The notes under the pieces: generated by a model | Seen by the model: only the letters and a program-made list of their open reading frames with translations | Told to the model about the DNA's origin: nothing | Database searches by the model: none | Shown here: positions 56,302 to 60,542 of the stretch, one piece after another | Position numbering within the stretch: position 1 is the first letter of the stretch | Layout of the letters: each line of letters begins with the position of its first letter | Assembly: GCF_003315205.1 (NCBI RefSeq) | Contig: NZ_QNRR01000014.1 | Location: 62,001-126,000 of the forward strand | Direction: 5' to 3' | Source of the DNA: Roseimicrobium gellanilyticum | GTDB taxonomy: Bacteria; Verrucomicrobiota; Verrucomicrobiia; Verrucomicrobiales; Verrucomicrobiaceae | DNA length: 64,000 nt | Position numbers and translations under genes: made by a program

Positions 56302-56952
56302 TCAGCGTGGCTCAAGAGCCGAGGGCGGCGTCTGTCCCTGCCAGCGCTGGAAATTGTCCCAGGCAAACATGCCGCACAGGAGGGCATTCCAGACGCTTGG
56401 ATTGGGACGCGTGATCACATAGATGCAAAGCGCCCCCGCGCACAGCATGCCCACGAGGTAGGCAAACTTCTCACGCCTCGGCCCCAGAATGCTTCGGAGC
56501 ACCTGGCCTCCATCGAGCGGGTAGATGGGCAGCAGATTGAGCAGTCCCCAGAAAATGCTCACGGTCATGAAGCTCACAAAGAACGCAGTGATGTACCACG
56601 AGTCTCCTGAGCTGTGCGCGATCACCTGCCAGGCAACAACACCCACCGCAATCTGCAGAAACGGCCCTCCGAGGCTGATGAGGATATGTTGCACACGCGT
56701 GAATCCACGATTGGGAATCGCCAGGCCACCCATCGCGTAGAGCACGATCTCCGCGCGTGCTCCGAACTTTCTCTGAAGCAGCGTGTGCCCCAGTTCATGA
56801 ATCAGAATCGAGATGAACCCAGCAGCCACCCAGATCAGCAGCAGGACGAATCCACGTGGTCCATTGAGCAGATTTGCTCCAAGCATCGCCATGATTGCCC
56901 AGAACATCCAATGCACAGTCACGGGAAAACCCAACAAGGTGAAGCGAATCAT
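56302..56952 (-). CDS. Site-2 protease-like intramembrane metalloprotease
   Basis: A 216-aa membrane protein with about six helices. The zinc motif ILIHELGHTLL and the third-ligand motif LLPIYPLDGGQVLRSIL are intact. The short form has no PDZ domain or CBS domains. Such proteases cleave transmembrane regulators, often anti-sigma factors. Two ECF/anti-sigma pairs lie in this window, but no direct link is shown. An in-frame GTG at 56973 is an alternative start. A small RNA or attenuator unit ends about 70 bp upstream. Confidence 0.9.
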   Translation of the reverse strand: MIRFTLLGFPVTVHWMFWAIMAMLGANLLNGPRGFVLLLIWVAAGFISILIHELGHTLLQRKFGARAEIVLYAMGGLAIPNRGFTRVQHILISLGGPFLQIAVGVVAWQVIAHSSGDSWYITAFFVSFMTVSIFWGLLNLLPIYPLDGGQVLRSILGPRREKFAYLVGMLCAGALCIYVITRPNPSVWNALLCGMFAWDNFQRWQGQTPPSALEPR

Positions 56953-57020
56953 GCGCCACCCTAGGTAACGCACGGAGTGCGGTCAACGAGGTTCGCCCCC
57001 AAGACGCAAAGGAACAGGCA

Positions 57021-57057
57021 AAAAAATCGGGGGCTGCCCCCCTGAAGAGCAGCCCCC
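57021..57057 (-). terminator. Intrinsic terminator downstream of the small RNA candidate
   Basis: A 9-bp stem GGGGGCTGC/GCAGCCCCC (57049-57057 with 57029-57037 on the minus strand) is followed by GATTTTTT. It points to termination of minus-strand transcription about 70 bp before the site-2 protease start. Confidence 0.88.
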
Positions 57058-57174
57058 GCAACAACATTACCCAATTTTACCTGAATCACACGTACGTTGC
57101 CGTTCGTGGCTCGCCGCGACCATCCCACTCATGTTTCGAACCGAAATCTGAATGAAGGATTTTAGCGGTCAGCT
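57022..57174 (-). ncRNA. Candidate small RNA or attenuator leader
   Basis: A predicted transcript from about 57174 to 57022 is bounded by a near-consensus promoter (-35 TTGTCA 57203-57208, 16-bp spacer, perfect -10 TATAAT 57181-57186) and an intrinsic terminator. Within it an ORF of 21 codons (57067-57132, MSGMVAASHERQRTCDSGKIG) could be a leader peptide, though no Shine-Dalgarno precedes it. I recognise no known RNA family. The transcript is read toward the site-2 protease gene, so attenuation of that gene is the alternative to a free small RNA. Confidence 0.5.
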
Positions 57175-57180
57175 GTTTTT

Positions 57181-57208
57181 ATTATAGAAACCGCCCGTGG
57201 AGTGACAA
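57181..57208 (-). promoter_or_regulatory. Strong sigma-70 promoter of the candidate small RNA
   Basis: On the minus strand TTGTCA (57203-57208, 5/6), spacer 16, TATAAT (57181-57186, 6/6). It is the best promoter match found in the window and does not face any long ORF directly. Confidence 0.75.
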
Positions 57209-57354: not shown

Positions 57355-60012
57355 TCAGCCCCGCATCACCACATCCTGTCCCGGCCGGATGGTGCGGCTG
57401 ATCACCTCGCGCAGCATGTCCAGGCTCACCGGCTTGGTGACGAAGTCATTCATGCCGGCACTGATGCACTCCTCTCGCACGCCACTCAGTGCGTGCCCCG
57501 TCACCGCTACGATGATCGGCTGGTGCTTCAGCAGGAAATTATTCCGGATTGCACGAGTAGCATCCTCCCCGCCCATCTCGGGCATCTGGAGATCCATGAA
57601 AACCAAATCGTAAGGAGTGCGCGCCACCAGTTCGATGGCCTCGCGCCCATTCTCCGCAATATCCACCTCGTTGTATCCGAGGCGGGCCAGCATCAAGCGC
57701 GCCAGCTTTTGGTTCATGGGCTGGTCTTCCACCAGAAGGATGCGCGCCGGATGTTCCGAGGCAAAGGATGCCGTGGCATTCGCACCACTGGATTCCTTGG
57801 CTGCCGCGCGCGGCGCTGAGGGTGGCGGTGCCGGTGTTGCTTCGGTGCTAGCAGCAGTGACCAGCGGTACTGGCGCGGCAGGAGCGACTTCGTTTTCGTC
57901 ACGGAACGGGCCGGACAATGAACCGGGAGGAAGCGCAATGGGCACGGCTCTCGGCGCCGGTCGCGGCTCCATGCAAAGCTGTGCCAGGGCACGCAGCAGA
58001 TCCCGGCGGCCTGCCGGTTTGTGCACGAAGAGACACTGGCCCCCCAGCACGGAATGGAAGATCTTCTTCACCTGCTCATGCGCGATGGGTACCATTCCCA
58101 CTACGGCAAGCCCTCGCGCTGCCAGTTCGAGCGACAGGCGGCTGGCCTCATCTCCGGAGAACGACGGGATATCGATGACCACCACCGATGGTGCATCGTC
58201 GAAGAGCTGACGCGTCGCGGCCCCCGGAGTGAGTGTGCGCGCGTCCGCCACCATGCCAAAGTTCCGGCAGTGATGAAGCACGATGCTGGAGGTCGTCTCG
58301 TGCGGAGAAAGCACGAGTACGGAACGCCCCTTCACCGAGGCGAGACAATGCACCTCTTCCGCGAGGCTTTCGTTGTCCTCCGGCGCGACTTCGAGCGGGA
58401 TCTCAAAATAGAAGTTTGAGCCCCGACCTTCCTCACTCACCACATTGATCTCGCCGGACAGGAGGCGGCAAAGGCGGCGCGAGATGGCCAGACCAAGACC
58501 TGTGCCGCCATATTTTCTCGTCGTGGATTGGTCCGCCTGGGTGAAGGCCTGGAAGAGACGTGAAACCTTGCTCGCGGGAATACCGATGCCGGTATCTCTC
58601 ACGGAAACCTGCACATACATCTGTTCACCACCCCCCTGCGGACGAGGGCGCAACACCGGCTGCGCCAGCGCCAGGATCTCACCACGATCCGTAAACTTCA
58701 CCGCATTCCCCAGCAGGTTCACGAGGATCTGCTTCAGACGTTGGAAGTCACTGGAAATATGACGCGGCAGCGTGTCGAAGACATGATAGTTCAGTTCGAT
58801 GCCTTTCTCCGCGGCCTTGTAGGCAAAGATGGACATGGACTCCTGGAAGAGTTTTTCCATGTTCACCGGCATACGCTCCAGCTCCATCTTGGCGGACTCC
58901 AGCTTCGAGAAGTCCAGAATGTCATTGATGAGGTGCAGCAGGCTCTCACCACTGGTGCGAATCATCTTCACCAACTCCCGCTGCTCCGGCCCGAGATTCA
59001 TGTCGAGCAACAGAGACGTGGTGCCGATGATGCCATTCATCGGCGTGCGGATCTCGTGGCTCATGTTTGCCAGGAAGTCCGACTTGGTTTCCATGGCCGA
59101 TTCCGCCAGTTTCTTGGCGCTGATGCACTCCTGGATGAGCGCCTGCTTGCGCTGCTCCTCCGCGGCCAGGTGCTCGATGGTGTCGTTGTACACCCGCGAG
59201 GCTTCAGAGATGTCGTCCGTTCCCTTTTGCGGGAGTCGATAAGTCCAGATGCACTGGCGCAGCGCATGAAGCCCGTCCGCGAGACGCCGCACGCGCATGC
59301 CGATACGCCGGCCCAATCCGATGGCCAGCAACAGTCCGGGCACCAGCCCCGCTCCTACGGCAAGCGTGATCATGCTGACCGTCTTCCGCGCGGCAAGGAG
59401 ATGGCGGAACTGGAACAACGGCTGGCGCGCCACCAGGAAGCCAAGTCTCGTTCCATCTGGCAAAAGGATCGGCGATGCCGCCGTGATCCACTCGGAGAGT
59501 TCCTCATTTTTTGTCCCCTTCGCCCCAGAATTCACGAAGCGTGATGACACTGCATACGGCGCTCCATCAGCCGCGAGGATGATGGCTTCGAGCACACTGG
59601 CGTCTGGAGACTGTCCGCTGATGGACGGCTTGAAGGTGGGCACATCAAAGAAACCCACACGAGTGAACCGGCGCTTGGGTTCCACCTCACCCGGTATCTC
59701 ACGCACGACTTCCACCAGCACCCCCAAACTCGTGAGCACATCCGGTCCGCCAAACTCATTCAACTGGTTTCGCAAACGCTCCTCCATCTGCCACGGCAGA
59801 GCACTCGGCAATTGCTTCGCATTCTGCTCCACGAGCATATGGCCAAGCTCCGCAGAGGCTGCAGTGACCAGGCTGAAGACATGGGACCGCTGCGAGTCAC
59901 GTGCAGACTGCACCTGATGCCACGCCACGCCCGCCATCGCCGCCGCCACCACGACCAGCATGCCCAACAACGAGTTGAACAAAAGCCGGGTGCTGAGCAG
60001 CGTGGACTTCAT
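57355..60012 (-). CDS. Hybrid sensor histidine kinase with degenerate and intact receiver domains
   Basis: An 885-aa inner-membrane kinase. Membrane helices are at about 11-30 and 213-233 with a periplasmic sensor of about 180 residues between, then a HAMP-like segment. HisKA has His319 in [12 protein letters not shown]. The HATPase contains [21 protein letters not shown] and [13 protein letters not shown] first receiver-like domain (about 565-680) has lost the acidic pocket and phospho-Asp pattern ([23 protein letters not shown]). An Ala/Pro-rich linker leads to an intact receiver ([32 protein letters not shown]). It is 65 bp downstream of a stand-alone receiver gene. Confidence 0.95.
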
Positions 60013-60077: not shown

Positions 60078-60542
60078 CTAAGCCGCCCTTCTGGAGGAGG
60101 AACGCCGCGCATTGCGCTCCATGACCGCCGTCAAATCCGTCGCGCTGTAAGGCTTGGGCAGGATGTCATCAAAGCCCAGGTTCAGGCAGCTCGACTTGCT
60201 GTCATCGCTCGCGAAGAAACTGCTGCTGGCCACGATGCGAATGCCGGGCTGGATCTGGCGCAGCACCTGCACGGCCTCCATTCCAGAAATGCCGCCAGGG
60301 AGAATCAAATCCAGGATAACCACGTCCACGGGGGTATGACGACCGACGCAATACTTCAGAAGCTGCTCCGCTTCCTCTCCGCTGCTGGCATTCAGCACTT
60401 CCCATCCCTGGGACAGCAGCACGGTACCAACCATCGCACGGAGAACGGGCTCGTCATCCACCAGCAGAATACGTCCCTTCGAGCCGCTGGGCGAGATGGG
60501 ACTCTCCTCATTCAAGATGAAATGGGGGCTTGTGATGTTCAT
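60078..60542 (-). CDS. Stand-alone receiver-domain response regulator
   Basis: A 154-aa protein. The acidic pocket is ILLVDDEPVLR, the phospho-Asp is in VDVVILDLILPGGISGM, the switch residue lies in RIVASSSFF, and the Lys is in DDILPKPYSATDL. There is no output domain. It is the first gene of a pair with the hybrid kinase and is probably its partner in a phosphorelay. It is preceded by a TATAAT at 60569-60574 and a CTATAC/GTATAG palindrome. Confidence 0.93.
   Translation of the reverse strand: MNITSPHFILNEESPISPSGSKGRILLVDDEPVLRAMVGTVLLSQGWEVLNASSGEEAEQLLKYCVGRHTPVDVVILDLILPGGISGMEAVQVLRQIQPGIRIVASSSFFASDDSKSSCLNLGFDDILPKPYSATDLTAVMERNARRSSSRRAA

Follow-up and report, generated by a model that had tools for sequence, protein, structure and literature searches.

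In this study, we provide evidence that the minus strand of the window (the whole 64-kb stretch of DNA analysed) carries a gene for a non-coding small RNA that stands alone, between a sigma-70 promoter of its own and a strong terminator, a reading that we hold with good confidence. The element combines a conserved promoter of its own, a terminator with compensatory changes and the absence of a conserved coding ORF, and promoter, structured RNA and terminator are kept together in three genera, in contrast to the spacers flanking them (Table 1). The preliminary description of this locus had left the choice between a stand-alone small RNA and a leader-peptide attenuator of the downstream protease, and it is the former that our results support.

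Table 1. Features of the small RNA locus and its neighbourhood
Feature	Position	Strand	Remarks
Response regulator	60078-60542	-	Upstream of the RNA
Hybrid histidine kinase	57355-60012	-	Upstream of the RNA
Inverted repeat TTCTC-AGAAGG-GAGAA	57224..57239	-	5' of the RNA promoter
Sigma-70-type promoter TTGTCA-16-TATAAT	57181..57208	-	-35 at 57208-57203, -10 at 57186-57181, 16-nt spacer
Counterparts of the RNA promoter			Read by eye: L009 TTGTCT-16-TATAAT; L010 TTGAGT-17-TAGTAT; L011 TTGTGT-17-TATACT; L012 TTGCGC-17-CATATT
Small RNA transcript, about 150 nt	57022..57174	-	Ends inferred from promoter and terminator
5' domain, irregular stem-loop	57109..57173	-	Closed by GCU/AGC and CCGC/GCGG
P3 hairpin CACGAACGGCAACGTACGTG	57089..57108	-	Folded in all five members
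Invariant stretch UGAUUCAGGUAAAAUUGGGUAAUGUUGUUG, about 30 nt	57059..57088	-	Predicted largely unpaired
21-codon ORF, ATG start	57067..57132	-	Judged non-gene: no Shine-Dalgarno sequence, not conserved outside the genus
Intrinsic terminator, 14-pair hairpin	57020..57058	-	UCUUCAGGGGG apex is conserved; ATTTTTTT follows the hairpin
Promoter-like block of the protease, TTGACC-17-TAGGGT	56958..56986	-	Inferred; poor -10 match; ends 5 nt before ATG 56952
M50 (site-2 type) membrane metallopeptidase	56302..56952	-	Pfam PF02163, E 1.2e-12; alternative start 56973

The promoter proposed in the preliminary description was borne out, with 11 of 12 matches to the consensus. When both strands were scanned, it was the only site in the window with at least 11 of 12 matches, and first-order Markov sequences of the same composition contained 0.13 such promoters per 64 kb (60 simulated windows); weaker promoter-like sites occur in the window at a frequency about equal to the shuffled rate. 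Further upstream, the inverted repeat is largely kept in the other species of the genus (G001) as CTCTCAAAAGGGAGAAAG, inside a 61-nt stretch of 72% identity beyond which the flank falls to 33%, and two genomes of the genus g5 (L010 and L011) have another inverted repeat, CTATCATTATTGATAA, fully conserved at a similar place. These repeats are possible regulator sites.

When 57 related genomes were searched with blastn, G001, of the same genus, yielded a homologue over the full length (84% identity), and three genomes from two further genera of the family matched over the 3' part (G014, 96%; G005, 90%; G004, 82%). Together with the source genome (G000), the RNA is present in five genomes belonging to three genera of one family. 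Between G000 and G001, the 84 nt that comprise P3, the invariant stretch and the terminator are 100% identical; identity is 74% in the promoter and 72% in the region just upstream of it, 33% in the far upstream spacer, 31% in the spacer between terminator and protease, and 78-79% in the coding DNA on either side. In another genus, the last 73 nt of the RNA are 90-96% identical, and the adjacent M50 protein is only 51-56% identical there. The transcript alignment places a promoter at the corresponding position in all five homologues, and the same terminator hairpin closes all five RNAs. Thus the two signals noticed initially, promoter and hairpin, are kept in every one of the five genomes across three genera, with diverged spacers flanking them. 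The pattern is that of a discrete RNA gene, the 3' half of which appears to be under strong selection.

The 153-nt RNA has a predicted folding energy of -64.3 kcal/mol, compared with -46.9 +/- 3.9 for dinucleotide shuffles (z -4.4). The sequence of the 5' domain is variable (68% identity within the genus), and its distal hairpin differs in length between genera; its stem-loop is common to the folds of four of the five homologues, the minimum free energy (MFE) fold of L011 pairing the region otherwise. In P3, hand alignment indicates that L012 has CACC/GGUG for CACG/CGUG and UCG/CGA for ACG/CGU. The terminator had been described as a GC-rich hairpin of 9 bp followed by a T-run; hairpin and T-run are indeed present, but the count of 9 bp was too low, the stem having 14 pairs. 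The hairpin itself (57058-57028) reads CGGGGGCTGCTCTTCAGGGGGGCAGCCCCCG, with a CAG loop and T7 following, the lower 10 pairs are all Watson-Crick and the upper four mostly U-G, and the predicted strength is -24 to -27 kcal/mol. Compensatory changes were found at three pairs of this stem across genera (G-C to A-U, C-G to U-A and C-G to G-C), and only 3 of 500 shuffles had as many as three pairs with both partners changed. In the model alignment, 94% of the terminator cells pair, versus 42-52% in slid controls. The upper part, UCUU/GGGG around CAG, retains its U-G pairs in every member, none of them turning into a Watson-Crick pair, so the apex may be conserved for its sequence. Since there are only five sequences, the covariation support is thin and mostly confined to the terminator; together with the changes in P3, the compensatory changes support the structure rather than prove it.

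Between P3 and the terminator lies the invariant stretch, 100% identical within the genus and nearly invariant over the three genera. In the other genera it reads UGAUUCAGGUAAUUGGGUAAWGUUGUWG, and over all members it can be written UGAUUCAGGUAA(AA)UUGGGUAAWGUUGUWG; the differences amount to insertions of 2 nt in g1 and 1 nt in the genus g4, plus two variable positions. The MFE folds give it at most a weak hairpin. Two short repeats are shared by all members: UUCAGG occurs twice per RNA, in the invariant stretch and in the terminator apex, and GGUAA occurs twice within the invariant stretch.

The model of transcription, action and targets that we infer from the presence, conservation, structure and gene order observed here is as follows. 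Transcription would start near 57174 from the sigma-70 promoter, perhaps regulated via the upstream inverted repeat, and would end at 57020-57028, where the strong terminator lies. The RNA would act in trans without Hfq, most likely through the invariant and largely unpaired stretch of about 30 nt, which (possibly together with the G-rich terminator apex) would pair with mRNAs or bind a protein, the hairpins providing stability and presentation. Hfq (PF17209) was not found in six genomes of the group (G000, G001, G004, G005, G014 and G012), the E. coli and B. subtilis controls being positive, and a mode of action independent of Hfq is therefore probable. Scans of five genomes for exact complements of either half of the invariant stretch found no target common to all genera; apart from the RNA itself, a few sites matched, about as many as with the reversed-pattern control. 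Besides the RNA, a single site is shared by two genomes, both of g1: it precedes an FHA-domain ABC transporter gene by about 110 nt (L093:1489-1511, minus strand, and the same place in L102), with 14-17 bp of complementarity and a predicted duplex of -29 to -31 kcal/mol, and no counterpart of it was found in g5. We regard this site as a mere lead, because the scan itself picked it out and similar numbers of matches came from the control. Trans action by either pairing or protein binding is thus put forward as a proposal.

The second of these modes, in which the RNA would mainly bind a protein, titrating it or serving as a scaffold with GGUAA and UUCAGG as binding sites, is a sub-case of the stand-alone RNA, and its likelihood overlaps with that of the latter. 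The duplication of both motifs in all members, the apex U-G pairs that look as if sequence rather than pairing had been selected, and the outcome of the complement scans all fit such a role. As the repeats match no known protein motif and short repeats can arise by chance, we consider it rather unlikely.

The neighbours named in the preliminary description were confirmed: the minus strand also encodes a hybrid kinase and a response regulator, both upstream of the RNA, and an M50 peptidase downstream of it. In each of the five genomes M50 is the next gene after the RNA and has the same orientation, starting roughly 50-130 nt past the terminator, and an M20 peptidase comes next wherever the available sequence reaches that far (the window, L011 and L012), though the gene before the RNA varies (a hybrid kinase in g1, a dihydrofolate reductase in G014 and a protein with no Pfam match in G004). 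The RNA was not found by model search at the M50 loci of 26 relatives, and M50 genes with other genes upstream come without it (upstream sequences inspected for part of the 26). On the M50 protein tree, the RNA-bearing members fall inside one well-supported group of ten that includes RNA-less genera, and two changes are needed. The linkage of RNA and protease is thus common to three genera and some M50 loci are RNA-less; therefore, the protease does not need the RNA.

An RNA acting purely in trans would have no need of such a constant place before M50, and this place is, together with the missing RNA where other genes stand upstream, what speaks for a cis-acting leader or attenuator in which the RNA would sense a signal and polymerase would read through into M50 (and M20). 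We nevertheless think this improbable and prefer the stand-alone RNA, because the ORF is unconserved, no antiterminator was found and the conserved block of the protease is separate. The best upstream pairing with the 5' arm of the terminator stayed within the range of shuffled sequences in all five genomes, and the terminator is very strong. A separately conserved block of 40 nt precedes the start codon of the protease, parted from the terminator by the unconserved spacer; it contains the promoter-like sequence, whose counterpart in G001 is TTGACC-16-TAGGTT beside the diverged spacer, and a different conserved block, TTGCAAAAGCAC...CACTGTCGGCGATG, stands before the protease in g5. The block is compatible with an own promoter and a near-leaderless start. 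Since conservation with G001 begins at ATG 56952, right after TTGACC...TAGGKT, the protease probably starts there and not at the upstream GTG 56973; the conserved block adjoining this ATG suggests that the protease mRNA is leaderless.

As the linkage to the protease is conserved, there is still room for some cis relationship. In one such version, which assumes neither a leader peptide nor a classical antiterminator, RNA and M50 would be one conserved module, and the RNA would represent a new structured class, either controlling intramembrane proteolysis in cis or being tied to protease signalling; we judge this improbable as well. The leader-peptide attenuator specifically is not supported, as neither a conserved leader ORF nor a mutually exclusive antiterminator was found. 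The locus resembles trp/his-type attenuators in having a promoter, a short ORF, a terminator and a downstream gene on the same strand, but differs from them in that the ORF is unconserved and lacks a Shine-Dalgarno sequence, no antiterminator pairing rises above shuffled sequence, and the downstream gene encodes a membrane protease that has a separate conserved block close to its start.

That the 21-codon ORF encodes a 21-residue peptide or leader peptide is very improbable. An ORF of this length does exist as claimed, beginning with ATG, and G001 retains the frame with GTG as the start codon, but most of the ORF lies inside RNA that is 100% identical within the genus, and this RNA-level identity accounts for the conservation of the region; a Shine-Dalgarno sequence was looked for before the ORF and is absent, and neither its frame nor its sequence is kept in g4 or g5. 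The weakest reading of all, that promoter and terminator are a functionless chance pair, might appeal to weak consensus sites being generally common, but it is refuted by cross-genus conservation far above that of the flanks, and a co-oriented pair of such quality, found once in the window, arose in none of the 60 first-order Markov windows; promoter and terminator are rare also when taken singly.

The RNA is a new, narrowly distributed small-RNA family, previously uncatalogued. No match was obtained in the whole window with Rfam 15 at the gathering threshold, and a loose E-value gave only chance matches on the wrong strand; a full-text search of open-licence papers found none describing the RNA. 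A model, R1, matches the RNA in the five genomes with E 1e-25 to 1e-33, these being the same sequences from which it was built. Under stricter filters, the RNA was detected with R1 in 5 of the 289 genomes searched from the order, which represent three genera of one family, and in a phylum sample of 388 genomes in none but the source genome. When 84,980 species genomes were scanned for the motif, a lone match turned up, about the number expected by chance, and the motif was not found in the viral contigs or plasmids scanned. R1 also gave weak matches in further genera of the family; four were read by eye, and as they lie in coding DNA or come without the promoter and the remaining parts of the unit, these matches were taken as chance. 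The best of them (G018 L085:1501-1633, 24 bits) has a similar terminator, and two genomes of the same genus gave none. At L085:1590-1633 (plus strand), G018 carries a different terminator, GCCGGATGCCCTTGTGAGGGGGGCATCCGGC followed by T7, which resembles the apex of the RNA and could be part of another small RNA or convergent.

Among known systems, the closest likeness is to Hfq-independent trans-acting intergenic sRNAs, which have their own promoter, a structured transcript of 50-250 nt, a Rho-independent terminator, a conserved unpaired region and no conserved ORF; the RNA described here differs from the known ones in matching no Rfam 15 family and in its narrow distribution. 6S RNA (RF00013) is also a separate transcription unit of similar size, but its closing stem with a large central bubble is absent here, and this identity was rejected on finding full-length sub-threshold 6S matches at other loci of the same genomes. 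Such matches occur in all six genomes and suggest a divergent 6S RNA in the family that Rfam scores poorly.

The PVC group was credited with only 8 distinct sRNA families in Rfam, compared with 345 in Proteobacteria (2022 review, PMC9029176). If transcribed, the RNA would add a new family to this group, in which few small RNAs are catalogued and to which the source genome probably belongs. That 84 nt are unchanged between species and almost so between genera, with Hfq undetected and a neighbouring protease only about 50% identical between those genera, points to a strongly constrained regulatory contact, and the fixed position beside a site-2-type protease offers a concrete first hypothesis.
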